Assembly (NCBI GenBank): GCA_018657625.1 | Contig: JABHWU010000142.1 | Coordinates: 62,001 to 126,000, forward strand | Source: Deltaproteobacteria bacterium | GTDB lineage: Bacteria; SAR324; XYD2-FULL-50-16 | Direction of reading: 5' to 3' | DNA: 64,000 nt | Shown: positions 10,218 to 31,336 of the stretch, piece after piece | Numbering within the stretch: the stretch's first letter is position 1 | How the letters are laid out: every line of letters starts with the position of its first letter | Notes under the pieces: model-generated | The model's database searches: none | Told to the model about the DNA's origin: nothing | What the model saw: the letters and a program-made list of their open reading frames with translations, nothing else | Made by a program: the position numbers and the translations under genes

Positions 10218-10492
10218 AGTCTTTTAAATAAAATGGTTTTAAAGATTTCCTATACCAAAGAAATTAATGTTATTTTCAATGGCCAATCTTTTATTGTCAA
10301 AGTAATTTATTGCTAATGCCAATTATCCGGTTTTACAAAATGAAAATAAATATACTGATCTGAATCAAATCATTTTTGGAAATAGGGAAAAATACTAATG
10401 AAGGTTGATTCTTGCTTTATCATTCATTACCCGATATACAAATTGGAACATACTTAAGCGAAATTCACTTGATAATAACCAAATTATTCTCC

Positions 10493-13222
10493 ATGAATCA
10501 ATATTTCAGGGTTTTCAGCTCAATACTGCTAATACTGCTATCTCTTTCAAATGTGTTGCAGGCTCAACCACAAGTTTTCCAAATTTTACCACAAGACTCC
10601 CAAACGCCAGTACAAGAGCCCTGGGAGGCTCTACAAGATCCTTTGGCAGTTCCACAAAAGTCTCAGAAGCTGGCACAAGAACCCCAAATACTACCGCAAG
10701 ATACCCGGGCGATACCGCAAGAGCCCCAAACACTAACAAAAAAGTCCCAGACTGAAATTGATGTTTTTTGCCGGAAACCGAAACAACTGAAAACCTGGCC
10801 ATGGAGGCTAATTTCAAGAAGAACCGGCATAGTAATTGATATAAATAAATGTCCGGTTTTCCTCAAAAAACTAGAACACATAAAATATCTGGACTTAAGT
10901 AATAGCGGTATTGAAGATCTGTCCCTCCTGAAACATTTAAAGAACCTGCAAGGGCTAAATATTAAAAACACCCATACAAAATCAGTTGCGCCACTGACAA
11001 AACTAGCGAAATTAAAATATCTGAACATGAATCATGTTCAGGTTTCTGACCTTACACCGTTAAAAGAAATTTCCCAATTAGAGCGCCTTGATATCAGTCA
11101 GTCACCAGTTAGCAATGCAGATATCCTTGAATATTTACCTACCTTGCAGGTACTGAATCTCAGTCACACACAAATTACCAATTTCAACTTTCTTAAAAAA
11201 CTAAAAAATTTAACGCATCTTCATTTAAACCATTCGTTAATTGACAGTCTTTCAAGCCTGAGACGCCTGATAAATCTGAAAGTACTAAATCTAATCAACT
11301 CTCCTGTAATATCCGTTATACCTTTATATAATTTAACTAAACTGACCCACTTAAATCTGGAATCTACCCATATCAGTAATATTAGTATTTTAAAAGATCA
11401 CGAACAATTATTAATTCTTAACCTCAGTAATACAGATGTCGCAGACTTAAAACCCTTAAAGAAACTAACTAATTTACGGTACTTGAATCTTAAAAGTACA
11501 CGCATTAAAAACCTGGAAGGTGTTAAAAACTTCAAGAAACTGCATTACCTGAATGTTAGTAATACTGCTTTATCTGATATTACTCCCTTAAAATCCCTTT
11601 TAAATCTAAGGTACCTCTACTTAAACAACAGTGAAATAACTGATATTAAAGTTATTCAAAGAATGATTAATTTGGAAGATCTCTTTTTAAATTATACTCA
11701 GATCAGTGACCTGTCTCCCATTCGTTATTTAACCAATCTCCAATACCTGGATTTAAGTCATACCAAGATTAATCGTATTAATTACTTAAAAAGGCTGACT
11801 AAGCTGGATCATCTGGATGTTTCCTATACTTCTGTCACTGACATTAAAGCTATTAGTAATTTATCCGAATTAAGGCATATAAACTTAAACGGAACCGATG
11901 TTTTGGATATTACATCCCTGCAAAAGATGACCCGATTAAGATTTTTAGGACTCGGGCGAACACGAATTAACAACATCGAAATCGTGGCCCTGTTCCCAAA
12001 ACTCAGTCATTTGGATGTGGCAGAAACGATGGTTGCGGATATCGATAGTCTTAATAGCTTAACCCAATTAAGTGAATTGGATCTATTTAAAACGCCTATT
12101 AACAACATCGCATCATTAAAAAATAAAGTAAAAATCAGAGAATTGAATCTTGGTTTTACTAAAATTAAGAATATTTCGGTTTTGAAACAAATGGCCAAAC
12201 TTCAAAAACTGGATTTAAGGCGAGTGAATATCAATAATATTAATGATCTGAAATATCTGAAAATGATTAAGCATTTAAATCTGTCAGGGGTTTCAATCAA
12301 TGATATTGAAGCTCTGCGAGGAATGACACAGTTAGAATACTTGAATTTAAACGCCACCCGAATATCAGACGTTGAGCCTTTGAATGCATTCAGAAATTTA
12401 AAAGAATTACTGCTAAATGGAACCCGTGTCACAAACGTTCAGGTATTGAAAGATCAAACCGGATTAAAAAAACTAGGACTACGGCATACAACCTTTCATG
12501 ACAAAAATATGCTGAAAGACTTGAAAAATTTGGAATTTTTGGATCTGAGTTTTACACCGATAGATGATATCAGTACTATTTCTCATTTAACAAATTTAAA
12601 AACTTTGTATTTAAATAATACCGGAATCACAAGTTTAAATCATCTGGAAAACCTTCAGAATCTCACTGTTTTAAGCGTTAGTCGGACGGGTATCGGAGAT
12701 GTTAATGGACTGGAGAAAATGTCCCAATTAAAAGTTCTTAATCTGAGTTATACACCGGTTCGAGATATCACTCCTTTAACAGGATCCATTAATCTGGAAT
12801 CACTCTTGTTAAGCAGAACGGCTGTTGAGGAAGTTACAGCTTTATCTGATCTCATAAATCTGGAAACACTTGATTTGAGCGGATGTGCCGTAAAAAACAT
12901 TGATACCATTCAGGAACTTATGTCTTTAAAATACCTGAATCTAAGCCATACTAACGTTAATAATATTGAAGGCTTATTCCATTTATATCAACTAAAAGAA
13001 TTGTACCTGAGTCTGACAAACATCAGTCAGGTCGAATCATTGAGCAAATTGAAACAACTGGAAGTATTAGATATCAGCCTGACAGGAATAGATGATGTTT
13101 TTGCTCTCAAAAGTTTAAAAAATCTAAAGCGCTTAAATCTCAAAGGAACCAATATTTCCGATCAGACAGTGTTAAAAGATATGCCCTATTATAAAAATTT
13201 CAACCTACCGAATACTCAATAA
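10493..13222 (+). CDS. Secreted protein with 35 SDS22/internalin-type leucine-rich repeats
   Basis: From the ATG at 10493 the product is 909 residues. The frame is open to 10412, but the internal ATG begins a signal peptide (Y-F-R-V-F-S-S-I-L-L-I-L-L-S-L). A Pro/Gln-rich linker follows, with imperfect L-P-Q-D-(S/T)-(Q/R) and Q-E-P-Q units. After a region with two Cys come 35 consecutive 22-residue repeats of the form L-x-x-L-x-x-L-x-L-x-x-T-x-I-x-D-I-x-x-L, by my count of the L-x-L cores. They run almost to the C-terminus. Repeats of this type bind proteins. No cell-wall anchor, transmembrane helix or catalytic domain is visible. A lone gene; partner unknown. Confidence 0.85.
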   Translation: MNQYFRVFSSILLILLSLSNVLQAQPQVFQILPQDSQTPVQEPWEALQDPLAVPQKSQKLAQEPQILPQDTRAIPQEPQTLTKKSQTEIDVFCRKPKQLKTWPWRLISRRTGIVIDINKCPVFLKKLEHIKYLDLSNSGIEDLSLLKHLKNLQGLNIKNTHTKSVAPLTKLAKLKYLNMNHVQVSDLTPLKEISQLERLDISQSPVSNADILEYLPTLQVLNLSHTQITNFNFLKKLKNLTHLHLNHSLIDSLSSLRRLINLKVLNLINSPVISVIPLYNLTKLTHLNLESTHISNISILKDHEQLLILNLSNTDVADLKPLKKLTNLRYLNLKSTRIKNLEGVKNFKKLHYLNVSNTALSDITPLKSLLNLRYLYLNNSEITDIKVIQRMINLEDLFLNYTQISDLSPIRYLTNLQYLDLSHTKINRINYLKRLTKLDHLDVSYTSVTDIKAISNLSELRHINLNGTDVLDITSLQKMTRLRFLGLGRTRINNIEIVALFPKLSHLDVAETMVADIDSLNSLTQLSELDLFKTPINNIASLKNKVKIRELNLGFTKIKNISVLKQMAKLQKLDLRRVNINNINDLKYLKMIKHLNLSGVSINDIEALRGMTQLEYLNLNATRISDVEPLNAFRNLKELLLNGTRVTNVQVLKDQTGLKKLGLRHTTFHDKNMLKDLKNLEFLDLSFTPIDDISTISHLTNLKTLYLNNTGITSLNHLENLQNLTVLSVSRTGIGDVNGLEKMSQLKVLNLSYTPVRDITPLTGSINLESLLLSRTAVEEVTALSDLINLETLDLSGCAVKNIDTIQELMSLKYLNLSHTNVNNIEGLFHLYQLKELYLSLTNISQVESLSKLKQLEVLDISLTGIDDVFALKSLKNLKRLNLKGTNISDQTVLKDMPYYKNFNLPNTQ

Positions 13223-15316: not shown

Positions 15317-16747
15317 ATGACGAAAAAGGATATCTATCAATATTATGAGAAAATCATCAATACGATGGCTGAAGCGCTAATGGTCATTAGCTCAGAAGGG
15401 GTAATATTGATGATCAACCGATCATTTGAACAAATGTTTGGATATAGTTCTGCAGAAATTGTGGGCCAACCATGTACATTATTGGAATGTGATGTATGTG
15501 AGTTAAGGGGGAGGGGTGTTAATGCGCCTTGGTGTAAGTTATTTGATTTGAATCAGGATATTAAAAAAAGATGTATGATTAAGGGTAAAAACGGCTCTTA
15601 TCTACCCGTCCTTAAAAATGCATCCATTCTAAAAGATGATTCAGGACAACCGATTGCTGCTGTTGAAATTCTGACTGATATTTCAAAAATTGATCAATTG
15701 GATCAAAAAGTAGACCTGCTTTCCAAACAACTGTCCGAAGATGGTCAGTTTTTTGGTATTATTGGTAAATCCCCATCCCTGAAAAAAGTTTTTGATATCA
15801 TGATTAAAGCTGCCCAGAGTGATGCTCCCATTATTATTTACGGTGAAAGTGGTACAGGTAAAGAACTGGTTGCGCAAGCGATCCATCAACTTGGCATCCG
15901 AAAAGACAAACCTTTTGTTCAATTAAATTGTGCGGCTTTAAACGAATCCCTTTTGGAAAGTGAACTATTTGGACATATGAAGGGGGCATTTACAGGTGCT
16001 TATCGCCATCGAATCGGCCGATTCGAAGCTGCCAATGGTGGGGATATTTTTCTGGATGAAATTGGTGATATCCCTTTATCAATACAGGTTAAATTGCTCC
16101 GGGTTCTGGAAGTTAATACTATCGAACGTGTTGGGGATCATCAGTCCATCTCCGTTGATGTTAGATTAATTACTGCCACCAATCGGGATTTAAGTAAATT
16201 GATTGACGAAAACTTATTTCGTGAGGATTTCTTTTTCCGCATCAATGTCATACCCATAAGAATTCCACCCTTACGTGAAAGGACTGAAGATATTCCTCTT
16301 TTAATCAATAGTTTTGTCAGACGACTAAGGGCAAGAACAGGAAAACCGATATCAGGGTTGGATCACAATGCTTTAGAATTATTTATGGATTATCAATGGC
16401 CGGGAAATGTCAGAGAACTTAAAAGTGCTTTGGAATATGCTTTTGTTATTGCAGAATCAGGTCTGATAAAACTGAGCCATTTACCAACTTCAATGACAGA
16501 AGAAAAACAACTAAGAGAAAAAGTTAATCAAATATCAATTGAACATAATTCCCCAGCTGAAAAAGGGAATCAAAAATTTATTGAAAACAATCCTACATCT
16601 GAAAAGGATTGTTTAATTCGGGCTTTGCGTCAAAGCAAGGGTAATCAGTCAAAAGCGGCACGAATATTGGGAATCGCCAGAGTAACCGTTTGGAACCGGA
16701 TGAAAAAATATGGTATTGAACTAAATAAGGTCATTGAAAATGAATAA
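15317..16747 (+). CDS. PAS-domain sigma-54-dependent transcriptional activator (EBP)
   Basis: This 476-residue cytoplasmic regulator has a PAS domain (about residues 8-130), a sigma-54 AAA+ domain (about 145-380) and a Fis-type helix-turn-helix near the C-terminus ([15 protein letters not shown]). Walker A is G-E-S-G-T-G-K-E, the sigma-54 contact loop is G-A-F-T-G-A, and Walker B is I-F-L-D-E-I-G-D. The PAS domain carries a five-cysteine insertion (Cys 53, 58, 61, 73 and 86) that could hold a metal or act as a redox or thiol switch. It is convergent with the Sec-rhodanese gene, sharing its terminator. That gene has a sigma-54 promoter, so this EBP is the natural candidate activator. Confidence 0.88.
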
Positions 16748-16763: not shown

Positions 16764-16801
16764 AAATAACAACGATTTCAATTGAGAAATCGTTGTTATT
16801 T
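16764..16801. terminator. Bidirectional rho-independent terminator
   Basis: A perfect 16-bp inverted repeat (AAATAACAACGATTTC / GAAATCGTTGTTATTT) with a 6-nt loop sits between the convergent EBP and Sec-rhodanese genes. T-rich DNA follows on both strands. Confidence 0.85.
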
Positions 16802-16816
16802 TAATTCAATATTACA

Positions 16817-18163
16817 TTAAAGTTTGATCTGATAACTACCATCCGCCATAATTTTAATTTTCGCATTTAAGAACTTAACATTATAGCCATTTTCTTTTAG
16901 CGTTTGATAAGCCATTGATGCTCTCACTCCGGACTTGCAGTGGATAACAATTTCTTTTCCCTTAGGAATTTTACTCAAGTTGGTGGCCACATCCTGAGTT
17001 GGAATATGTAAAGACCCTTTAATAACACCGGTCTTAATTTCATCATAGTCCCGGACATCCAAAATCAGTCCATTGGAAGATTGATTTTTGGCAACTTTAT
17101 CGAAATCCTGAACTTTAATTGCACCAGCTACCGGTTTCGGGATATATACAATTCGACTTGCCAGAGCGCCTTTTACCAGGCCACTGCCCATTTTCTTCCA
17201 GGATGCCAATCCACCTTTTAAGATAGAAGTGTTTTTGTATCCCCAACCTCTAACAATTTTAAATGCCTGAATAGCCTCTTGACTACTATCAGCATATAAT
17301 ACGATTGGAGCCTTTTTCTTTTTGGGCATTTTTGATTTAGCTGCTTTAAGCTCACCTAAAGGAAGCGTATAAGCGCCTTTTATATGGCCTTTTTGAGCAC
17401 TGGCTTTAGATCTTAAGTCCATAACAACGACTGATTTTGGTGACTTTGCAAACGACTTGATAAATTTAGCAGTGGTATAAACTGGCTGCTTAGCTTTTTT
17501 CCATGCGGGTAACCCGCCTCTGAACACTTTAATGTTCGTGTAACCTAACGTTTCTGCCTTACTGGCAGAAGATGGACTGAGACGTCAGGTAGGCCCTCCG
17601 CAATAGAACACAACGAGTTGGTCCTTGTCTTTTGGTAACTTGGCAATATTCTTATCAAACATTGCGTCATAATTGGAAACCGCACCTTCAATATGACCTT
17701 GAGGAAAGAATTTTCCAGGTCTGGCATCATACAAAGCTAATTTTCCTTTATTTTTGGAAATTAAATCCGCCATTCCTTTCGCGTCAATTATCCATTCTAC
17801 CGGAATGTCTGCAGCTTGTTTTACGCCTACTTCCGTAGCAACGTATATATTTCCTCTTTTGGCATAAGAAACAGCTACTTCCTTATCTTTACCAATTTTA
17901 TTAAATGCCTTGGCACCATCTAATTCAGTAGCAGCATCATAAGTAACCTGCCAGGTGGCACTACCCATAAAAATCTGCATGGTTTTCGCTTTTCGGGAAA
18001 CGGACTGCAGCTTTCCACGCAGCAAACCAGGCTCAGCTTCATGACACTGAGTACAGGGCTTTAAAATGATTGGTTTTTTACTAGCCCCGATTGCTATCGG
18101 ACTATAAATAAAACCCACCATTATAAATACAACGAAACTTCGTTGTAACAAATGTTTAAACAT
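16817..18163 (-). CDS. Exported triple-rhodanese cytochrome with in-frame UGA (selenoprotein)
   Basis: Two frames (18163-17585 and the one restarting at a GTG at 17527) are in the same phase, interrupted only by TGA at 17585-17587. Read through, the product is 448 residues. It has a signal peptide (1-27), a c-haem motif C37-T-Q-C-H41, and a small beta-rich segment (about 50-115). Rhodanese domain 1 (about 118-222) has active loop C188-G-G-P-T-U193. Domain 2 (about 230-325) has Ala291 where the catalytic Cys should be. Domain 3 (about 345-448) has I-H-C409-K-S-G-V-R. After the TGA the translation R-L-S-P-S-S-A-S-K-A-E-T-L-G-Y-T-N continues the rhodanese fold without a gap. Cys-containing relatives that I recall have C-G-G-x-x-C in this loop. 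Together with the SECIS-like hairpin this argues for selenocysteine rather than a broken gene. Likely role: periplasmic sulfur (or selenium) transfer serving the nearby respiratory enzyme; this is inference. It has its own sigma-54 promoter and is monocistronic. Confidence 0.85.
17552..17587 (-). promoter_or_regulatory. UGA selenocysteine codon with bacterial SECIS hairpin
   Basis: Reading the minus strand, TGA (17587-17585) is followed after 14 nt by TTCTGCC-AGTAA-GGCAGAA (17570-17552), a perfect 7-bp stem with a 5-nt loop. The loop starts 22 nt after the TGA and its second base is G. Published bacterial SECIS models ask for a loop about 16-37 nt from the UGA with G in the first two loop positions, so this fits. 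The hairpin lies inside the coding sequence, as bacterial SECIS elements must. Confidence 0.8.
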
Positions 18164-19280: not shown

Positions 19281-22181
19281 TCAGCCCCTATAGGCAAATA
19301 ATACTGAATAAAGAATAGCTGCTACAATCACAATTCCAGTGGTCAGAAAAATAAATCCAAATAATTTGGAATAAAACAAATGTCCCTTGGACGGTGGATT
19401 TTCAAGTTTGTTTTCAAGTTCACCACTGGCTAATACTTGTTCATATTCTCTGGATCGTTCTTCTTTGAACACAGATAGTGGGATTTTTTGAGTAAAGATA
19501 ACAGTATCCATAGGGAATTTACCAGGTCGTAAATGGGTATTGAAAAAGTGAATGGTAAAAATAAATCCCGTAGCTAATAAAGCTTCATCACTATGAATAA
19601 TAGCTGCTACATTGATCGCCCAACCAGGTAATACAATAGTTGCTGCTTCAGGAAACCAGAGAACCAGACCTGTTAAGCCGATTACCGTTACTCCCCAAAA
19701 GACTGCCATATAATCAAATTTTTCCCAATAGGTCCAGCGTCCAAGTTTAGGAGCTTCACCCTTTCCAAAAAAATATTTTAAATTTTGGACCAACTCTTTT
19801 AAATCACGAGGTAAAGGAATCATTGAATACTCTTCAGTTAGTAACCCTTTAAGTGTAATTTCCCGTTTGCTAAACAGTGTAAATAAGCGAAATAGGTGGA
19901 AACTGAAGTAAAAAAACGTGATAACAGCAGCGAAACGATGTAAATAACCGGTTATAATTGGCCCACCCAAAATTTGGGACACAGCCATAAAAAATTCATT
20001 TTCAGTGAATTTTAGTGTCATACCGGTGAGAGCCAGGGTCAGAAAACTGACAATGATCATTAAGTGTAAAACAGTGTGGGTGACATCAAATCGCCGATAG
20101 TGTTTTTCCTGTGCATGTAATTGCTTATTGCCGTTACTTCCATTTTTTGCATGGTCGATGATAAGCCTAATAAACCAGAGTAGAGTGTGAAGCCCAAATA
20201 GAGCAAATGTCCCAATCAATAACCCTGTCATTGACCAGAAGGCATAAAATAGTAAAGGATAATTCTCCCTGTCATTATGCGATGCATGAGGTAAATAATC
20301 TGTAAAGGCTTCATTGACACCAACATGACATTTTGAACAGGTTTGGATTTTATTATCTTTGTGAAGCGTTGAACTTGGTTGATCTGCCTTGTGAATATCA
20401 TGAGAACCATGACAATCGGCACAATTCGCAACGGCTCCTTCACCTAATTTGGAGGCCTTTCCATGATAGGTTTCAAAATAGGACGGCAACAGTTTTTCGT
20501 GACATTTACCGCACTGATCGACAGTATTTAAGCGAAATTGGCTGGTATCATGGCGTTGAATCGTGTGTGAGGTATGACAATCATTACAAGCAGGTAACAG
20601 TTGGTCCGTTTTGGTAACCAAAGGACTATGCACGCTATTTTTAAAAACTTCGAAAATTCCGAGATGGCAATTGGCACAAGTAGCCGGAAGATTTTCATGA
20701 AATATTGAAGATTCAATATCATTGCCAGGCAATATTTTATGGGGCATGTGGCAACTGACACAGGTAGCTGAAACCAATAATCCACTGTCAAGCAAAGCTC
20801 TTCCGTGGGTACTATTGGTGTAATTGATCATAATTTCAGTTTCTTTTGTGTTTCCCCGAATGGCTGATTTTCCACCGTCTTTATGACACTCCCCACATAG
20901 ATCAGGTACATTTTTGGGAAAAGTGGACGATTGCACATTTTTCTTTGATAGCGTGTTATGTTTTCCGTGACAATCGACACAGCTAGGGACGTCTCCATCT
21001 TTTTCCGCCATCAATTTTCCATGAGTGCTGGCATCATAAGCAGTTACTTCACCTTCATGACAAGCTGCGCATTTAACAGGTTCCAGATCTTTACAGGCCA
21101 AATCTTTATTGGTCCCGTCTGCGGCTAGATATTGATTGAAAGCATCAATCTCTTTACAAGCTTTATCCGACTCCGAATGAATATCATAATGGCATTTGAC
21201 ACAGGGCACTTCTGCATGGACCGAATCCTCATGTTCCGTTCTACTCATGTAAAGCGATTTGGACAATTTTTCTTCGATGGGCTTTAATTTCGGATTGGTA
21301 TGGCATTCCAAGCACATACGATCGGTTATGGTCTTGTCGTAAATTGCTTGACGCAAGGTGTGCGGTGAATGACATTCCACGCAAGGAGGAAGTTGTCCCG
21401 GTATTTTCTCCCATAATCGCCCTTTGACGATTTTTTGATGGGTTTCTTCAATTAAACTATGGCATTGCGTACAAGTGGTTGCCACGTTGGCTTCATTGAT
21501 CTTTGATTCAGCATCTTCATGCCTGAAAATATCGTGTTCTCCATGGCAGGTGGTACAGGTAGGAGCAACGGTTAATCCTTGTTTGAAAAGCGCTTTACCA
21601 TGAATAGACATGGAGTAATTTTCAACGACTGCAACTTGGCTGATTTCATGGGTTTCTGTCATTGCCGTCCCTTCTTTATGGCAACGGCCGCAAGTTTCGG
21701 GGATGTTCAGCACATAAACCGATGAGTTTTTATCGGAAGCCGGGTAAATATAATGATGGCCGTGGCATGAGGTACAATCAGGAGCAAAACGGTCCTTACG
21801 TTTAAACATGGCCTCACCATGAACTGTCTTTTGATACTCTTTATATTCCTCCTTATGACACGATTTACATTCAACTTTCTTAATAACTATTTCATCCTCA
21901 TCATGGGTTTCTGTAGCATTCGTGTGGCATTCTGTACATTGGAGTTTCCCATGAGCTGCCTTTTCAAAGGAAACAATATCAATTTCGGCAGGATCAGCTT
22001 CAGGATCATGTCGGTAATCCCAGCCAATGGTATCAGGTTCAAAAATATGGGTTGGAACTTCGTCACCTTCATGGCAATCTAAACACACTTCATTTTCTTC
22101 AGCCCATAATCGAGAACCAAAAGTAACAGATAGTATAACTAAAAAAAAGGCCAATAACACATTCGTTAATATCTTTTTCAT
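19281..22181 (-). CDS. 19-haem cytochrome c fused to membrane cytochrome b
   Basis: This 966-residue protein has a signal peptide (1-27), then 19 CxxCH motifs between about residues 33 and 630. Many are in C-x-x-C-H-G-x-H or C-H-x-x-H contexts that give bis-His haems. The last third has about six transmembrane helices with His residues (H-T-V-L-H-L-M, Y-L-H-R-F, F-H-L-F-R-L-F, F-I-F-T-I-H-F-F-N-T-H-L) typical of the cytochrome b561/formate-dehydrogenase-gamma fold. It probably oxidises or reduces quinone in the membrane and conducts electrons along a periplasmic haem wire. The start ATG follows GAGGTGA. It lies between the tetrahaem cytochrome and the NapC remnant, all on the minus strand. 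Confidence 0.9.
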   Translation of the reverse strand: MKKILTNVLLAFFLVILSVTFGSRLWAEENEVCLDCHEGDEVPTHIFEPDTIGWDYRHDPEADPAEIDIVSFEKAAHGKLQCTECHTNATETHDEDEIVIKKVECKSCHKEEYKEYQKTVHGEAMFKRKDRFAPDCTSCHGHHYIYPASDKNSSVYVLNIPETCGRCHKEGTAMTETHEISQVAVVENYSMSIHGKALFKQGLTVAPTCTTCHGEHDIFRHEDAESKINEANVATTCTQCHSLIEETHQKIVKGRLWEKIPGQLPPCVECHSPHTLRQAIYDKTITDRMCLECHTNPKLKPIEEKLSKSLYMSRTEHEDSVHAEVPCVKCHYDIHSESDKACKEIDAFNQYLAADGTNKDLACKDLEPVKCAACHEGEVTAYDASTHGKLMAEKDGDVPSCVDCHGKHNTLSKKNVQSSTFPKNVPDLCGECHKDGGKSAIRGNTKETEIMINYTNSTHGRALLDSGLLVSATCVSCHMPHKILPGNDIESSIFHENLPATCANCHLGIFEVFKNSVHSPLVTKTDQLLPACNDCHTSHTIQRHDTSQFRLNTVDQCGKCHEKLLPSYFETYHGKASKLGEGAVANCADCHGSHDIHKADQPSSTLHKDNKIQTCSKCHVGVNEAFTDYLPHASHNDRENYPLLFYAFWSMTGLLIGTFALFGLHTLLWFIRLIIDHAKNGSNGNKQLHAQEKHYRRFDVTHTVLHLMIIVSFLTLALTGMTLKFTENEFFMAVSQILGGPIITGYLHRFAAVITFFYFSFHLFRLFTLFSKREITLKGLLTEEYSMIPLPRDLKELVQNLKYFFGKGEAPKLGRWTYWEKFDYMAVFWGVTVIGLTGLVLWFPEAATIVLPGWAINVAAIIHSDEALLATGFIFTIHFFNTHLRPGKFPMDTVIFTQKIPLSVFKEERSREYEQVLASGELENKLENPPSKGHLFYSKLFGFIFLTTGIVIVAAILYSVLFAYRG

Positions 22182-22434: not shown

Positions 22435-23040
22435 TTACTTTTTTGGAATCGGATGCTTTATTTCTTCAAACCGTTTGGCAAAATCAAAATCTTTATAGGT
22501 TGGGTTTTTATATACCACTCCACCTAATTTTATTTCCGGTGTGTGACACGCTTTGCAGACTTTCTCATTAGGTACCCAAAGACCCATTTTCTTGGCAGTG
22601 GCTGATTTTGCAGCTCCACCTTCTTTATATTTGATTTTTTTCATTATTTTTTTCTTTACATATTTTTGACCAGGACCATGACAGTCTTCACACTGAACGC
22701 CATCCTCAATTTTATATTTTTTACCAAAAAATGATGCAGGATGTGCTTTCCCCTTTTCATCGTACTGAGATTTAACATGGCAGACCAAACAAGCTTTTTC
22801 TTTTTGAGGGTCTGTACTGAAGCCAAGTTTTTGAGCAAATTTCTTAGCTTTTGGGCTGCTCAATGCCTCAAATGCTTGTGCATGTTTGCCTTTTGACCAT
22901 ATGCCATATTGAGCACCTACTTTATCTTTCCGGTGACACGATTTACATTTTAAAGCCCCAACATATGTATTAGCAGCTACCGCAACAGAAACACCATATA
23001 AACAAATAAATACCAACATCAAAACAGTCTTCTTTTTCAT
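22435..23040 (-). CDS. Periplasmic tetrahaem cytochrome c (c-554-like)
   Basis: The 201-residue product has a signal peptide (to about residue 22) and four CxxCH motifs: C-K-S-C-H, C-L-V-C-H, C-E-D-C-H-G-P-G and C-K-A-C-H. The spacing and the Y-V-G-A-x-x-C-K-S-C-H start, with S-K-G-K-H-A-Q-A-F and D-G-V-Q-C-E-D-C-H-G-P-G, are those of the cytochrome c-554 family. It is Lys-rich. It probably shuttles electrons between the 19-haem cytochrome and the molybdoenzyme. It lies 103 bp after the TorD-type chaperone gene, probably in one transcript with it. Confidence 0.88.
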   Translation of the reverse strand: MKKKTVLMLVFICLYGVSVAVAANTYVGALKCKSCHRKDKVGAQYGIWSKGKHAQAFEALSSPKAKKFAQKLGFSTDPQKEKACLVCHVKSQYDEKGKAHPASFFGKKYKIEDGVQCEDCHGPGQKYVKKKIMKKIKYKEGGAAKSATAKKMGLWVPNEKVCKACHTPEIKLGGVVYKNPTYKDFDFAKRFEEIKHPIPKK

Positions 23041-23828: not shown

Positions 23829-24596
23829 TTAATCTTTAATACTATATGATCGAACATAATGGACATTTGGTTTGGTTCCTGCCTCGGGTTTTAATACAAA
23901 ACTTTTGTATTTTTTCAGAGTTTGAGAAGCCAGACTACTTTTATTGTCAGTATCTCCAAAAACCCTGGCCCCGGAAGGACATGCTTCCACGCAAGCCGGT
24001 AATACACCTAATTTCAGGCGGTGATCACAAAATGTACATTTTTCAACAATCGTATCTCTTCGAACATCTTCATAATCAGGATGACTATACTTCGTCCGAT
24101 GAGGAGGCGTTGCTCTCACAGCCCGCGCAGTATCAATCCCAGATGAGGTACAACCAGGGATCACTACTTCACTATCCTTAAAAAAGGATTGAACCGGAAT
24201 TTCATCACTGTTATAGCTGATGACACTATACTCGCCGTAAGCAGGATCTTTTTTGACCTCCTCCATGCTATAAGGGCAATTGTCCTGGCATTGGCGACAC
24301 CCGATGCATCTTTCATTATTAATCATCGTCAATCCGTCAGCTGTTTTAAAAATAGCCGCAGGTTCTGCAGGGCAATCTTTAACACAAGCAGGATCCGAAC
24401 AATGATTGCAAAGCACAGGTAAGGTCCGGTAACCAGTATCCGGAAATTTCCCTGTTGTTTCATGAACAAAGTCTGCCCAATTATGGGTTTGGCCATTGTT
24501 CCTTAACTCAGTGTTGTTTTCTGTTTTGCAAGCGATAGCGCATGTTCCACAGCCAACACATTTTTGTAAATCAATAATCATGGAATATTGAGTCAT
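23829..24596 (-). CDS. Four-cluster ferredoxin subunit of molybdopterin oxidoreductase (DmsB/PsrB/TtrB type)
   Basis: This 255-residue protein has four cysteine groups: C-V-G-C-G-T-C-A-I-A-C, C-N-H-C-S-D-P-A-C-V-K-D-C-P, C-I-G-C-R-Q-C-Q-D-N-C-P and C-T-F-C-D followed by C-V-E-A-C-P. These bind four [4Fe-4S] clusters that carry electrons to the catalytic subunit. No Tat signal is present, so it is probably exported piggyback with the catalytic subunit. A 35-residue insertion between clusters 2 and 4, holding V-V-I-P-G-C-T-S-S-G, is longer than in E. coli DmsB. The start follows AGGAG. Confidence 0.9.
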   Translation of the reverse strand: MTQYSMIIDLQKCVGCGTCAIACKTENNTELRNNGQTHNWADFVHETTGKFPDTGYRTLPVLCNHCSDPACVKDCPAEPAAIFKTADGLTMINNERCIGCRQCQDNCPYSMEEVKKDPAYGEYSVISYNSDEIPVQSFFKDSEVVIPGCTSSGIDTARAVRATPPHRTKYSHPDYEDVRRDTIVEKCTFCDHRLKLGVLPACVEACPSGARVFGDTDNKSSLASQTLKKYKSFVLKPEAGTKPNVHYVRSYSIKD

Positions 24597-24619: not shown

Positions 24620-27166
24620 TTATATTTTTTCAATTTTAACCAGAGCATGCCCACCATTACGTGCACTGGAACCGGATAATCGTTCCAATTCAAATGGGAT
24701 GATCGTGTTATTATTACCACCACGCGGCAACGCTTTTGAATAATCCTTGGCAGCCGTTTTCCCGTATGCCCAGTGACCTTGTCCGAATGCTTTGGCTACT
24801 GTTCCGGGACGCATCCCTTCCCAAAGTCGTGCTGTACATTCAACACTACCACCAATCGAGCTAACCCGGATATTGTCACCATCCTTCAAACCCAGCTTTT
24901 TGCCGTCAATAGGATTCAACTTCAGCGCATCATGCCAACCGACATCCCCTGGATCCACATGCTTAAATTCATAAAACCAGGGACTGTTGGCACTACGACC
25001 TTCACGATTCAAGCGGGATTTGTAGTCAATGAATGAATATGGATATTTTTTCCTGTCTCCATTGAGAAGTGGTGGTTCATAGTGAGGAACAAACGCCATT
25101 TCTCCCCGGGCTGTATAATTCGTCTCTTGCATGACACGATCAACATCCACATGATGTTTTTTTGCATGACCCTCAAGCGCTTTTTTCAAAGTCTCGCTGT
25201 AAAACTCAAATTTATGGGTTTTGGTTTTAAATTTTCCACCCCATTGCTTTTTATATTGATAGGGTTTGGAATTCCACATACCTTTGTCCAGCATATCTTT
25301 CCAGCCATGAATTTTATCACCGCCCACATCTTTTTTGCCATCCCAAAGTGGAGCCGTATAATACTTCAACGCAAATTCGGTGAACTCTTTTGAGTTTTTG
25401 GCCTTTCTACCAGTCTCCGGATCGACATACATAGTTGTTAAAGCATCATAAAGATTAGGAAAATCCCGCTCTTTCAGCTTTTCAGCGATTAAAAATGGGA
25501 ATTCAGTCTCGTCTGTTATCACATCCCAGATCGGATCAACCACAGGCTGAAGCAAAGTGCAGGTGGCATAACGATTTCCTTTGGTCTTAGTAAAGGCCAG
25601 TTTCTCAAACATGCTGGTTGTACATGGCAACACAATATCTGCATATTGTGAGAATTCCGAAGCATGAGTCGAGAGGTGCACTATGAATGGAACCTTTTCC
25701 AGTGCTTTTTCCCAAAGTGTTGTACCATTATTAGCATAAACCGGGTTGTTCATATAACCCACCATCATCTTAAGCTCATAAGGATCTTTCTCCAATATTC
25801 CATTGGCAACGTTGTTGGTGGAAACACCTCCACCTGATTTACCTTTGGATATAGCTGGCAAATTCAGATAACCCCTTTGATCGATCTTCTGCATTTTGGA
25901 GTGCTTTTTTGCCAAATCGTCCTGGAATTTCGCCATCAATTTCTTGTTAAGCTTATTCACTGGAATTTTAGCTGTTTGAAGAGATCCACCTTTGTTATCA
26001 ACGCCACCAATCAATCCGGCCAAGGCATGAACTGCCATGGAGGAATAGCCCCCTCTTGGATGCATTGCAGCGCCGGGGCCCATCCAGACACAAACGTTCG
26101 GTGCCGCTTTGGCCATACCTTTTGCAACCCGAATGATTTGATCTGCAGGTACACCTGAAATATCAGCTGCTTTTTCAGGAGTCATATCTTTAACTGCCAA
26201 ATTCCACCATTTCACCAGACCGTGGGATTCTATTTCGTTAAACAAGGATTCGTCTACTGAAATACCGCTCTTAAAACGGTTTTTACCATCTTTGAAATCA
26301 CCTACAAACCCTTTGTACCAGCCACCTTCTGTCAATAAAACATGTGCCACAGCCAAAGCCAAAGCCCCATCTGTTCCCGGTTTAACCGGTAACCATTCAT
26401 GACCTTTAGCGGCAGTATTGTTCAACTTTGGATCTACTACAGCTACTGTGGCTTTATCCAGCACTTCTCCCAATCGTTTGATAGATGCCGGAATTAATCG
26501 ATTGCTACTGACCGGATCACAACCCCAGACCAGTAGGTATTTTGTATTATCGAGATCATAATCTCGGTATGCCCATTTCCCTTCGGTGTAATATACTCCG
26601 AATTTTTCGGCTTCTGCACACATTGAACTATGTGAAATACTATTTGGAGAACCGAATACCTTGGTCGTCACATCATAAATGACATCTCTCATGTAGGCAT
26701 AACGACCCCGAAGTAAAGCATACTTTTCCGGCTCACCGGCATTTCGTAATTCCATCATTTTATCAGCGATGGTATTAAGTGCTTCATCCCAGGAAATAGG
26801 AACGAATTTAGGATCTACGCCACGACCTTTTTTTGAATTCGTTCGCTTCATCGGCACTTTCACTCGATCCGGATCATATAGTTGTTGCAGGGACAGGTGT
26901 CCACGTGGACAAACGATGCCATCATTTTGTTTGGAATATTGATTCCCCCGAACTTTAACAGCTCTACCATCCTGGACCAGTACTTCAACCGGACACCAGG
27001 TTGTACACCCCTGGCAGGTAGATGGTTTCCAGGTACCACCAAGTGCACCGACACGGTTCTTTTTACCGGTCTCAGCAGCGAAGGCGCTCATACCCGGAAC
27101 TGCCACTGCAGCACCAGCTCCAGCAGCAAAAGTTGCTTTTAAAAAATCTCTACGCTTAAACTTCAT
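24620..27166 (-). CDS. Tat-exported molybdopterin oxidoreductase, catalytic subunit
   Basis: From the ATG at 27166 (GGAGG 5 nt upstream; the frame is open to 27238) the product is 848 residues. It starts with a Tat signal K-R-R-D-F-L-K-A and Ala-rich stretch. A [4Fe-4S] site C-Q-G-C-T-T-W-C-P ... C-P-R-G-H follows at about residues 50-90. The molybdenum ligand is probably Cys in S-H-S-S-M-C-A-E-A-E-K-F-G. Cofactor-binding regions include W-G-C-D-P-V-S-S-N-R and V-D-P-K. A Cys ligand puts it with the polysulfide/thiosulfate, tetrathionate, arsenate and selenate reductase group rather than the Ser-type DMSO reductases. The substrate is not determined. No NrfD/PsrC anchor gene is nearby, so quinone contact probably runs through the cytochromes. 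It is first in the operon. Confidence 0.88.
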   Translation of the reverse strand: MKFKRRDFLKATFAAGAGAAVAVPGMSAFAAETGKKNRVGALGGTWKPSTCQGCTTWCPVEVLVQDGRAVKVRGNQYSKQNDGIVCPRGHLSLQQLYDPDRVKVPMKRTNSKKGRGVDPKFVPISWDEALNTIADKMMELRNAGEPEKYALLRGRYAYMRDVIYDVTTKVFGSPNSISHSSMCAEAEKFGVYYTEGKWAYRDYDLDNTKYLLVWGCDPVSSNRLIPASIKRLGEVLDKATVAVVDPKLNNTAAKGHEWLPVKPGTDGALALAVAHVLLTEGGWYKGFVGDFKDGKNRFKSGISVDESLFNEIESHGLVKWWNLAVKDMTPEKAADISGVPADQIIRVAKGMAKAAPNVCVWMGPGAAMHPRGGYSSMAVHALAGLIGGVDNKGGSLQTAKIPVNKLNKKLMAKFQDDLAKKHSKMQKIDQRGYLNLPAISKGKSGGGVSTNNVANGILEKDPYELKMMVGYMNNPVYANNGTTLWEKALEKVPFIVHLSTHASEFSQYADIVLPCTTSMFEKLAFTKTKGNRYATCTLLQPVVDPIWDVITDETEFPFLIAEKLKERDFPNLYDALTTMYVDPETGRKAKNSKEFTEFALKYYTAPLWDGKKDVGGDKIHGWKDMLDKGMWNSKPYQYKKQWGGKFKTKTHKFEFYSETLKKALEGHAKKHHVDVDRVMQETNYTARGEMAFVPHYEPPLLNGDRKKYPYSFIDYKSRLNREGRSANSPWFYEFKHVDPGDVGWHDALKLNPIDGKKLGLKDGDNIRVSSIGGSVECTARLWEGMRPGTVAKAFGQGHWAYGKTAAKDYSKALPRGGNNNTIIPFELERLSGSSARNGGHALVKIEKI

Positions 27167-27423
27167 TATTCCCTCCTTTTTTGGAGTTTTTGTTAAATGA
27201 TCATTAACACCAGGGAACTTCATACTTAATGAAAACAATAAACTTCTACCCTTTAAACCCTACTTCAAGTAAGTAAAATGGATTTTTCAAGTTGAAGTTT
27301 TCATTCGCTTTCATCGAAAACTTTCCTCAGCGATCCAAGATTAAACTTGTTTTTTTTATCTTACCTCTTCCTTCAAAACCTTCATCAGTTCATTAAATCA
27401 TTCTTTAGACTGAACTCTTTTCT

Positions 27424-28189: not shown

Positions 28190-30412
28190 TTAATTAATTG
28201 AACTCCGATTTGGTAATATGTTGTGTTTTTTGATCTTTTTGTATAGTGTACCGCGGCTTATAGCAAGATTCTCGGCAGCTTTGGTTTTATTCCAGCTGAA
28301 TTTTTCCAAAGCATTTCTGACCAATTGTTCTTCATTTTCAGACAAAGTACTATCAGAATTACGATTGTGATCAATAGAATTATCTGAAATTAAAACAGGT
28401 AAGTCCAGTACATCAATCTCACGACCTTTTGTTAATACGGCTGCATGCTCAATCGTGTTTTCCAGCTCGCGAACATTACCTGGCCAGAGATATTCTTTTA
28501 AAACATACATTGCCTCCGGTGTAATACCAGTGATATTTTTATTCAGTTCGGACGCATAGCGTTTAAGAAAAAACTTTACCAGTAAAAAAATATCATTTCG
28601 ACGTTCACGTAGTGTTGGCATATTAACTGGAATAACATTTAAACGGTAAAACAGATCCTCTCGAAATAATCCTGTTTTAACTTCATTTGAAAGATTTTTA
28701 TTAGTGGCTGCTAAAATTCTAATATCAACGGATAGAGTTTTTTCACCTCCTAAACGCTCAAATTTTCGACTTTGTAACACTCTTAATAACTTAATCTGAG
28801 CAGATTGGGATATTTCCCCAATTTCATCCAGAAAAACAGTCCCTCCATTTGCTTGTTCAAAACGCCCTGCTTTGAGACGTGCTGCTCCCGTAAAAGCTCC
28901 TTTCTCATGACCAAAGAGTTCACTTTCCAGCAAAGTTGCAGGATAGGCAGCACAGTTGATTATGGTGAAAGATTTATTTTTTCGGTGACTCATATCATGA
29001 ATTGCTTTGGCCACAAGTTCTTTCCCTGTACCGCTTTCTCCCTGAATCAACACACTGGCTTCTGTCGTAGCGACAGTTTCTATTAATCTGAAAATAGCTT
29101 GCATTTTAGGATCTTTTCCAATCAATCCACAAAATTCTTTTTTCTCGGTAATCGTAAGATTTAATTTTCCTAACTCATCTTCCAAAGATAGTGCTCTATT
29201 AAAAGCGCTGACTGATTGACCAAGAATTGGGTCGATGACTGCCAGTTCCTCCTTTTCACAACTACAATTTGCCTTGCATCCTACAACTAAAACACCAAGT
29301 AAATCGCTATCCTGTCTTATTGGAAAAATAGCATATTTGGCTAATGACATTAAATTTGAAGGTAAAACAACAGAAGATAGGACGTCCTGCTCAAAGTATT
29401 GAAATTGATTTATATTCTGTAATATCGAATAGATGGTATTGAATTCTGACTGACCATATTCTTTCATTTCAAAATCAGTAATCAAAAAAAGTTTTTTCCG
29501 AGGATCAAAAACCAAAAAAGCCATTTGTTGACAGGTTAATATATTTCTAAAAGTTTTAAGTAAAAACAGACAAATATCATGAAGTTTTGGTAAACCAGCG
29601 ATACCTTTACTGATAGTGAACGAAGTATTCAACTGCCTGTGTGCACGTTCCAAAGCTTGGTTTTTATTTACTAACTCCTGGTTTGACCTGTTTAGTTGTT
29701 GGGTATATTCCTTTATTCTGACCCGCATGGAATTGAACGCTGTGATTAATTTTGTTACTTCACGTCGACCTTTAATTACTATCGGCTGATCCAGACTCTC
29801 TTCGTCCATTATTTCCACTTGTTTAGCCAGGTTTGACAAAGGACGGGTTAAATAGATCAGCAGCACATGGATCCCCCCTAATGCCAAAACAATGATAGAT
29901 GCAGCTAATAAACTTACCTGAATCCAAAGATCCTTCATTTTTTCACGATAAGGCGCTTCCGAAATACCAAGACGAACACTCCCGGCATGGCCATCAAAAA
30001 TCGGCCAGGCAATATCCAAAAACCTCTCACCGTTTTCAGACTGAATCTTCTTTAAGCTGCTGTGTTTCCTGTCGGGTGGTTGGTTAAAACCGATCAAGGC
30101 ACTTGGGATGCCTTCTTTAAAAGTATGGGCGATCACCTGCCCTTCTCTTTCAATGAAGATATAAGCGACGCTGGGGGTTGCAATTACCTGGTTGTCAATT
30201 TCTTTTTGAAGTGTAACCAGATCATTGATTAATATAAGATCGGCACTGTCTACAGCGAGCTTGTGGGCAATGTTTTCCGCTTTTGCTTTGGCACTATCTA
30301 AAAGTGCTTTGTTATATTGACGGGTAACTAGCTGAGAAACTGAAAACCCGATTAAAATCACTAAAATCGTTATAACAAGTTGCAGTGATCCTCTTAGACT
30401 ACTATTTTTCAT
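28190..30412 (-). CDS. Membrane-anchored sensor/sigma-54 activator (HAMP-GAF-AAA+-Fis)
   Basis: This protein of about 740 residues combines sensor and activator. A transmembrane helix lies at about residues 8-30, a periplasmic sensor loop to about 160, and a second helix at about 165-190. Then come HAMP (R-P-L-S-N-L-A-K-Q), a coiled coil and a GAF-like region (about 265-410) with a Cys cluster G-C-K-A-N-C-S-C. The sigma-54 AAA+ domain (about 435-665) has [14 protein letters not shown] and V-F-L-D-E-I-G-E. A Fis helix-turn-helix (N-K-T-K-A-A-E-N-L-A-I-S-R-G-T) ends it. It has no kinase domain, so the periplasmic signal would act directly on the AAA+ ring. The start is ATG 30412 or TTG 30415, behind GGGAG. 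It lies a few bases after the PhnD-like lipoprotein gene, in one operon. Confidence 0.85.
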   Translation of the reverse strand: MKNSSLRGSLQLVITILVILIGFSVSQLVTRQYNKALLDSAKAKAENIAHKLAVDSADLILINDLVTLQKEIDNQVIATPSVAYIFIEREGQVIAHTFKEGIPSALIGFNQPPDRKHSSLKKIQSENGERFLDIAWPIFDGHAGSVRLGISEAPYREKMKDLWIQVSLLAASIIVLALGGIHVLLIYLTRPLSNLAKQVEIMDEESLDQPIVIKGRREVTKLITAFNSMRVRIKEYTQQLNRSNQELVNKNQALERAHRQLNTSFTISKGIAGLPKLHDICLFLLKTFRNILTCQQMAFLVFDPRKKLFLITDFEMKEYGQSEFNTIYSILQNINQFQYFEQDVLSSVVLPSNLMSLAKYAIFPIRQDSDLLGVLVVGCKANCSCEKEELAVIDPILGQSVSAFNRALSLEDELGKLNLTITEKKEFCGLIGKDPKMQAIFRLIETVATTEASVLIQGESGTGKELVAKAIHDMSHRKNKSFTIINCAAYPATLLESELFGHEKGAFTGAARLKAGRFEQANGGTVFLDEIGEISQSAQIKLLRVLQSRKFERLGGEKTLSVDIRILAATNKNLSNEVKTGLFREDLFYRLNVIPVNMPTLRERRNDIFLLVKFFLKRYASELNKNITGITPEAMYVLKEYLWPGNVRELENTIEHAAVLTKGREIDVLDLPVLISDNSIDHNRNSDSTLSENEEQLVRNALEKFSWNKTKAAENLAISRGTLYKKIKKHNILPNRSSIN

Positions 30413-30421
30413 CAATTAAAT

Positions 30422-31336
30422 TTAAGCTCCCTTCATAACTTGTTGCATCTTCCAAATGGGTTGATACCATTCTTCTTTGGGTTTTAAAAATCGGTCAATT
30501 AACAGATTATTAAGAATTTCCCGTCCTTTTGGGTCTTCATGCATTAAAAGGATGATATCCTGGATTTTCTTTTTTAAATCGTCTGACAAACTTAAGGCGG
30601 CAACCAGAGGAGGACTTCCAAAATCTTCTGATTTCTTGATCACACGAGTTTGAGAAGTATATACATTTTTTTTTGATTGAAAGTACTCCCATTTATGTCC
30701 ATCCACTGCAGCTCCGTCAACCAGGGATTTGGCAACTGAAAGAATCGAGTTATCATGACTATATGTATAGTTCGTGCTACGAAAAAAGGATTTGGAGCTT
30801 TCCCCCATCTGATGTAACCAATATTTAGGAACCAAGGATCCGGTGTTGGAATTTGGATCTGAGTAAGCAAATGAATGCTGTCGTAAATCAGATAAGGTTT
30901 GAAATTTACTATTCTTATTCACGATTAAATAAGATTGGTAGTATTGACTTCCTCTAACGACCGGAGTTGCCAAGGCTTGAAAAGTATATTTTTTCCGTTC
31001 TAATGCATAAGGTCCACTGCAAATAAATGCCAGATCAATTTCATTTTTAGGGAATAGTTCATTAATTTCTTTATAGGTTTTACGTTGCACTAATATAGTA
31101 TCCCTGTCTAATTTGGTTCCGATATAGCTTAAAAGCTTACGATAATAGGCAAATGTCTCTTTCGGTGAAATCATCGCAGCAACGGCGACCCGCAATATCT
31201 CTTTGTTCTTATTTTGAACAGCTTTAGGAACGGTAACCGTATCAGAAAAATTGATAGATGAATATTGATCATCTTTCATACAGGAAATAAGAGACAATAG
31301 CATGATTGCTGATATGAATACTTTTAAGAATTTCAT
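30422..31336 (-). CDS. PhnD-like periplasmic binding lipoprotein, probable oxyanion sensor component
   Basis: This 304-residue product has a lipoprotein signal ending L-I-S-C (Cys19). The PhnD/phosphate-phosphonate-binding fold follows: R-V-A-V-A-A-M-I-S-P, D-L-A-F-I-C-S-G-P-Y, then G-S-Q-Y-Y-Q-S-Y-L-I-V, F-A-Y-S-D-P-N-S-N-T-G-S and V-D-G-A-A-V-D-G-H-K-W-E. No permease or ATPase gene accompanies it. Instead it is the first gene of a two-gene operon with a membrane-bound EBP. PhnD-like proteins such as AioX (arsenite), and the PhnD-like sensor domain of TtrS (tetrathionate), control respiratory molybdoenzyme genes, so a signalling role fits. The ligand is unknown; the Cys in F-I-C-S-G may matter. 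Confidence 0.82.
   Translation of the reverse strand: MKFLKVFISAIMLLSLISCMKDDQYSSINFSDTVTVPKAVQNKNKEILRVAVAAMISPKETFAYYRKLLSYIGTKLDRDTILVQRKTYKEINELFPKNEIDLAFICSGPYALERKKYTFQALATPVVRGSQYYQSYLIVNKNSKFQTLSDLRQHSFAYSDPNSNTGSLVPKYWLHQMGESSKSFFRSTNYTYSHDNSILSVAKSLVDGAAVDGHKWEYFQSKKNVYTSQTRVIKKSEDFGSPPLVAALSLSDDLKKKIQDIILLMHEDPKGREILNNLLIDRFLKPKEEWYQPIWKMQQVMKGA

Follow-up and report, generated by a model that had tools for sequence, protein, structure and literature searches.

The window analysed here is a stretch of 64,000 nucleotides from a draft genome (79.8% complete) of a Deltaproteobacteria bacterium, carrying on its minus strand a gene that reads as a single frame of 448 amino acids, from ATG at 18163 to TAA at 16817-16819, once an in-frame TGA is taken as selenocysteine (Sec), residue 193 being the only Sec of the product. 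No other long frame in the window is interrupted by a TGA well within the gene. The preliminary description had placed the gene correctly at 16817-18163, with its strand left out, and its claim that the frames on either side of TGA 17585-17587 are in phase is borne out by the one frame so obtained. The gene, its parts and the genes upstream of it are as follows.

16817-18163, minus strand: predicted selenoprotein gene of 448 codons plus TAA, with a c-type haem motif, a beta domain and three rhodanese domains
18083-18163, minus strand: signal-peptide-like N-terminus, residues 1-27, from reading of the sequence, with low pLDDT
18041-18055, minus strand: CTQCH motif for c-type haem, residues 37-41, also kept in the nearest homologues
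17822-18025, minus strand: small all-beta domain, residues 47-114, from AF2 secondary structure, with a weak DUF5666 match (E 0.16, below cut-off)
17477-17791, minus strand: rhodanese domain 1 with Cys188/Sec193, approximately residues 125-229, from the model and a PF00581 stretch at 138-224
17600-17602, minus strand: Cys188, paired with Sec193 in the CGGPTU loop of domain 1, conserved to at least 90% among 44 aligned members and replaced by Sec in TsoB-like matches
17585-17587, minus strand: in-frame TGA read as Sec193, the column compared among homologues
17552-17570, minus strand: SECIS-type hairpin of 7 bp with loop AGTAA and G in loop position 2, nucleotides 15-33 after the TGA
17177-17470, minus strand: rhodanese domain 2 without catalytic Cys, approximately residues 232-329, from sequence, PF00581 and model
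16853-17131, minus strand: rhodanese domain 3 with HCKSGVR loop and Cys409, approximately residues 345-437, from sequence, PF00581, conservation and model
19281-22181, minus strand: cytochrome of 966 aa carrying 19 CxxCH motifs, its C-terminal part b-type and formate-dehydrogenase-gamma-like
22435-23040, minus strand: tetrahaem cytochrome c, 201 aa
23144-23761, minus strand: TorD/DmsD-like molybdoenzyme chaperone
23829-24596, minus strand: ArrB-like iron-sulfur subunit, 239.7 bits to ArrB (cut-off 450)
24620-27238, minus strand: ArrA-like molybdoenzyme, probable respiratory reductase, 1138.8 bits to ArrA (NF041714, cut-off 1600)

The architecture is supported by both sequence and structural models. 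PF00581 matches the protein in three stretches (153.4 bits against a cut-off of 22.2; 2.8e-45) and an AF2 model built from 44 sequences (mean pLDDT 91, pTM 0.83) shows the beta domain followed by three rhodanese folds, in keeping with the three rhodanese domains of the preliminary description; the signal-peptide-like N-terminus and the c-haem motif are likewise present in the sequence. In domain 1 a strand (183-187) leads to Cys188 and the loop GGPTU, with a helix starting at 195. The CxxGxR rhodanese loop is present only in domain 3 (HCKSGVR), domain 1 having CGGPTU in its place and domain 2 no Cys. Top Foldseek matches were rhodanese domains, identifying the fold as rhodanese and not thioredoxin, and no whole-chain match was returned, only individual rhodanese domains. 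These matches included the multi-rhodanese sulfurtransferases 1yt8, EanB and YnjE, which share tandem rhodanese domains with the window protein but whose whole-chain TM-scores of 0.19-0.27 indicate that single domains only are matched and whose descriptions mention neither haem nor Sec. From its sequence the product is probably exported with one c-type haem, a beta domain and three rhodaneses. Only part of the family carries the haem motif, such that haem coupling cannot be general; another large part lacks it, and several of the haem-less members have a lipobox.

Homologues were drawn from the genome's own family and class and from named GTDB genomes; a single-protein profile found no relative in a scan of the genome contigs and a Sec-masked alignment found 80 loci. 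At the column of residue 193 exactly one TGA was present in each of 43 distinct homologues, with TGC or TGT in a further 27, and at this column a second, independent group of Geobacter class members had TGA in eight cases and TGC or TGT in 22. The Cys-containing homologues that the preliminary description had proposed looking for therefore exist, and relatives in several bacterial phyla keep either Sec or plain Cys at this position. In an alignment of 44 members Cys188 and Cys/Sec193 are each at least 90% conserved. The suggested pairing of these two residues gains from the conserved CxxxxC/CxxxxU motif and from five TsoB-like matches (L123, L125, L128, L129 and L130) with Sec at both loop positions (FYUAGLAUVRS), equivalent to Cys188 and Sec193, which supports a working pair. 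The tree of the family requires five changes between Sec and Cys, at least four of them forced by well-supported branches. Some members depart from this pattern. One (L035, G008:C308), adjoining molybdoenzyme genes, has neither reactive residue (FYSHGVTSEQ) and is probably a degenerate paralogue. The source genome encodes two more multi-rhodanese paralogues without Sec (L017 and L018, G000:C84), one with the loop FYCDGKNC and the other with no Cys in that loop. A single contig (G031:C47; L069 and L043) has one molybdoenzyme operon with a Sec copy on one side and a Cys copy with a short loop (FYCVGGCLSP) on the other.

The hairpin noticed in the preliminary description is present as claimed, with a perfect 7-bp stem and 5-nt loop (TTCTGCC AGTAA GGCAGAA) starting 15 nt after the TGA and G at loop position 2. 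Folding the region, the check then suggested, gave only modest evidence on its own (z -1.65, with 10 of 200 shuffles folding as well) and a search of the region against Rfam returned chance matches only, with no SECIS among them. As the single-sequence fold is weak proof the case was put to comparison of homologues. The four core pairs together with the G at loop position 2 were found in 41 of the 43 Sec genes compared with one of the 27 Cys genes, and in the independent Geobacter class set in 8/8 Sec genes against 0/22 Cys genes. The sole Cys gene with a complete SECIS-like hairpin (L106, 10001-10573) comes from a Nitrospirae MAG and has a Sec gene as its sister; it probably changed from Sec to Cys recently, its hairpin being a fossil SECIS. 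Codon 8 after the TGA encodes S, R or G with a middle base that is always G, and codon 9 has a final G in 42/43 across the residues K, L, E, V, Q, R, M and F; such constancy of bases despite varied residues points to selection on the RNA rather than on the protein. Pair 18-30 switches among CG, UA, UG, AU and GU and remains standard in each of the 28 aligned sequences. The covariation score of 0.262 was reached neither in any of 500 shuffles nor by a slid version.

The source genome encodes SelA, SelB, tRNA-Sec (selC, anticodon TCA) and a SelD that itself contains Sec. The preliminary description had called for selA, selB, selC and selD in the same genome, with the lack of selB and selC counting against Sec, and all four were found. 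SelB was identified with TIGR00475 (372.8 bits); a search for it with PF09106 gave no match in the genome, a false negative of this short wing domain. Among the genomes with Sec homologues that were tested, 24 of 25 have SelB, with none detected at the threshold used in the genome of L067, possibly through genome incompleteness. The closer Cys homologues L064, L066, L068, L075, L079, L083, L090 and L100 come from eight genomes, and SelB was found in none of them. It is present in many genomes with more distant Cys homologues, indicating that the Cys form does not imply loss of the machinery.

Under table 11 the region yields two ORFs, of 192 and 236 aa, and this, with the draft state of the genome, would favour reading the TGA as a true stop arising from a pseudogene, a sequencing error or two separate genes. 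Such a reading would have to accommodate the same single TGA in the same column of 43 distinct homologues, which excludes a local sequencing error, the Cys found there in others, the covarying hairpin and the complete Sec machinery. The conserved TGA column and the hairpin rule out all three forms of it, leaving a true stop only a negligible probability. On the sequence evidence the UGA at 17585-17587 is almost certainly decoded as Sec193 by the genome's own SelA, SelB, tRNA-Sec and SelD, directed by the SECIS hairpin 15 nt downstream.

Reading on the same strand towards the selenoprotein gene, its upstream neighbours are the ArrA-like, ArrB-like and TorD-like genes, the tetrahaem and 19-haem cytochrome genes and a small membrane ORF. 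The ArrA-like protein matches the solved ArrA 6cz7 with 971.6 bits and falls short of the NF041714 cut-off of 1600, such that it is not assigned to ArrA itself. A sigma-54 regulator whose sensor part is HAMP-like and, next to it, a PhnD-family binding protein adjoin this operon (28190-31336, minus strand), an arrangement that may recall the AioX oxyanion sensor. Downstream of the selenoprotein gene a near-perfect inverted repeat (16764-16801), probably a two-way terminator, lies between it and a convergent plus-strand gene (15317-16747). A further plus-strand gene of the window (10412-13222) encodes a 936-aa leucine-rich-repeat-like protein.

Relatives of the gene are found in varied surroundings. 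A molybdoenzyme and an iron-sulfur subunit were encoded in the stretch examined at 19 of 65 named-genome loci, a raw count. The type of molybdoenzyme beside the gene differs between genomes, being ArrA-like in the window and PhsA-like elsewhere, with all four of those tested in relatives PhsA-like. No molybdoenzyme lies close to many Sec members of the Desulfobulbales and the Geobacter class. In Mesobacillus selenatarsenatis SF-1 genes for catalytic, iron-sulfur, NrfD-like and TorD-like proteins are followed by that for a Cys-containing rhodanese of 441 aa, an order that resembles srrABCDEF. Three close relatives from the window's own family adjoin Ext-like Rieske, cytochrome b and multihaem genes, among them ExtP-like and ExtM-like ones that score below the model cut-offs. 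Cys members of the Geobacter class adjoin PhsA-like operons or Ext-like genes, with both contexts at one locus (L196), and Sec members of this class (L188-L191) lie near MATE-type-transporter-like and cysD/cysN-like genes. In Vibrio hannami a Cys form is encoded near a cytochrome of the octahaem tetrathionate reductase family.

Selenoproteins with rhodanese domains have been predicted before in five forms (PMC13188914), with an earlier list (PMC9312934) and a rhodanese-like sulfurtransferase selenoprotein listed elsewhere (PMC5029168). Form 1, a rhodanese-like domain selenoprotein with the motif UxxS, is represented by WP_010941598 from Geobacter (PMC9312934; PMC13188914). The family described here likewise has a rhodanese in which Sec is followed by xxS, as U-A-L-S in the Geobacter class homologues and U-R-L-S in the window protein, and since UALS fits UxxS the family may be form 1 and already predicted as a selenoprotein, a comparison that was made by the listed motif. 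Neither source mentions haem or three rhodanese domains for form 1 (PMC9312934; PMC13188914). TsoB (NF045694; UxxxxU) has a homologous rhodanese with its reactive positions at Cys188 and Sec193, but with two Sec and a DsbD-like fusion against the CxxxxU of the window protein, which scored 69.1 bits against a cut-off of 805 and is not a TsoB. The best match among models named as selenoproteins was NF041203, a rhodanese-related (seleno)protein (form 3), at 84.7 bits to domain 1, below the cut-off of 115; this is a single-domain model of 126 positions with CxU as its listed motif in contrast to CxxxxU, and membership was rejected.

Rhodanese proteins also accompany enzymes of selenite reduction. 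SrrE and SrrF belong to the selenite reductase operon srrABCDEF of Bacillus selenitireducens (PMC12481199), and the M. selenatarsenatis homologue is similar in gene order and size. These Bacillus-type homologues differ from the window protein in being Cys lipoproteins with no CxxCH upstream of the loop, and the srr-like order is that of this distant Cys homologue while the context in the window is ArrA-like. ExtH (NF040901), the rhodanese of the Geobacter selenite/tellurite cluster ext (PMC5877670), is of similar size and the relatives have similar neighbours (Rieske, ExtP-like and ExtM-like), but the window protein reached only 20.1 bits against a cut-off of 200 and was rejected as an ExtH. 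No NCBIfam cut-off was reached by the window protein, and none of the 44 members had an NCBIfam match specific to the haem and triple-rhodanese architecture. The preliminary description had held that no such protein was described, and this needs to be narrowed, with rhodanese selenoproteins already predicted (PMC9312934; PMC13188914) and full-length haem-bearing Sec homologues present in the Geobacter class, while the combination of haem and three rhodaneses does appear to be undescribed. In the literature consulted what appears to be new is this architecture, the conserved SECIS with its contrast between Sec and Cys genes, and the link to Phs-, Srr-, Ext- and Arr-type clusters.

The protein may function as a periplasmic chalcogen relay for a respiratory molybdoenzyme, a role to which its sequence and genomic context give a slightly better than even probability. 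Cys188 and Sec193, lying in one active-site loop of domain 1, would form a Cys/Sec redox pair, with domain 1 accepting sulfane-type sulfur or selenium that a respiratory molybdoenzyme of the PhsA/PsrA/SrrA/ArrA clade either produces or is to receive. Bound as a persulfide or selenylsulfide, the atom would reside at Cys188/Sec193, and electrons from the haem or from neighbouring cytochromes would reset the loop, with domain 3 (CxxGxR) carrying out ordinary rhodanese transfer and domain 2 playing a structural part. The low pKa of Sec and the lability of its selenylsulfides would fit a fast reversible carrier. The suggestion of a relay derives from the molybdoenzyme operons, Srr-like gene order and Ext-like genes near relatives together with the ArrA-like cluster of the window, and is weakened by the many Sec members without a nearby molybdoenzyme and by the differing types of molybdoenzyme between genomes.

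Many of the Sec members are stand-alone genes, which would also suit a protein in which Sec is real and serves general periplasmic thiol or peroxide-type redox chemistry or repair, with no tie to a reductase as chalcogen carrier. Most predicted selenoproteins resemble thiol oxidoreductases (PMC9312934) and a Cys/Sec pair within one loop is suited to disulfide chemistry, but the fold is that of a rhodanese and not a thioredoxin, the rhodanese CxxGxR site has been kept in domain 3 and many homologues lie inside molybdoenzyme operons, such that this explanation is considered rather unlikely. A selenium-specific role, in which the protein captures selenium from the reduction of selenite or selenate to detoxify it, to deposit it as Se(0) or to feed selenium metabolism, would be in keeping with the Srr-like cluster of M. 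selenatarsenatis and the Ext-like genes near relatives (PMC5877670), and the dependence of Sec on selenium supply could make such a protein self-tuning. Set against this, the enzyme in the window is ArrA-like and not SrrA-like, thiosulfate or polysulfide may be the substrate of PhsA-like enzymes, and it is Cys forms that occur in selenite-type clusters with Sec forms often outside them; a role confined to selenium is judged improbable. Beyond the relay proposed for the window protein, it is tentatively suggested, as a possibility held with more doubt than belief, that this widespread family of exported Sec/Cys multi-rhodaneses, part of it with haem, may be an accessory to the respiration of sulfur, selenium and arsenic oxyanions in general, in which a genetically encoded Cys/Sec pair handles reactive chalcogen and this is coupled to haem electron transfer. 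We know of no described rhodanese in which Cys/Sec handling of chalcogen is coupled to electron transfer by haem.

With two ORFs predicted under table 11 and no NCBIfam cut-off reached, automatic annotation is expected to split or miss the gene. On the tree Sec and Cys have been exchanged four to five times, and the hairpin has been retained or lost together with these changes, a clean natural experiment in SECIS evolution. No clear function has been assigned to the rhodaneses found in clusters for selenite and thiosulfate reduction, and the occurrence of Sec, swappable with Cys, in more than 40 homologues marks residue 193 and its partner 188 as the working residues, making the part that these accessory proteins play directly testable.
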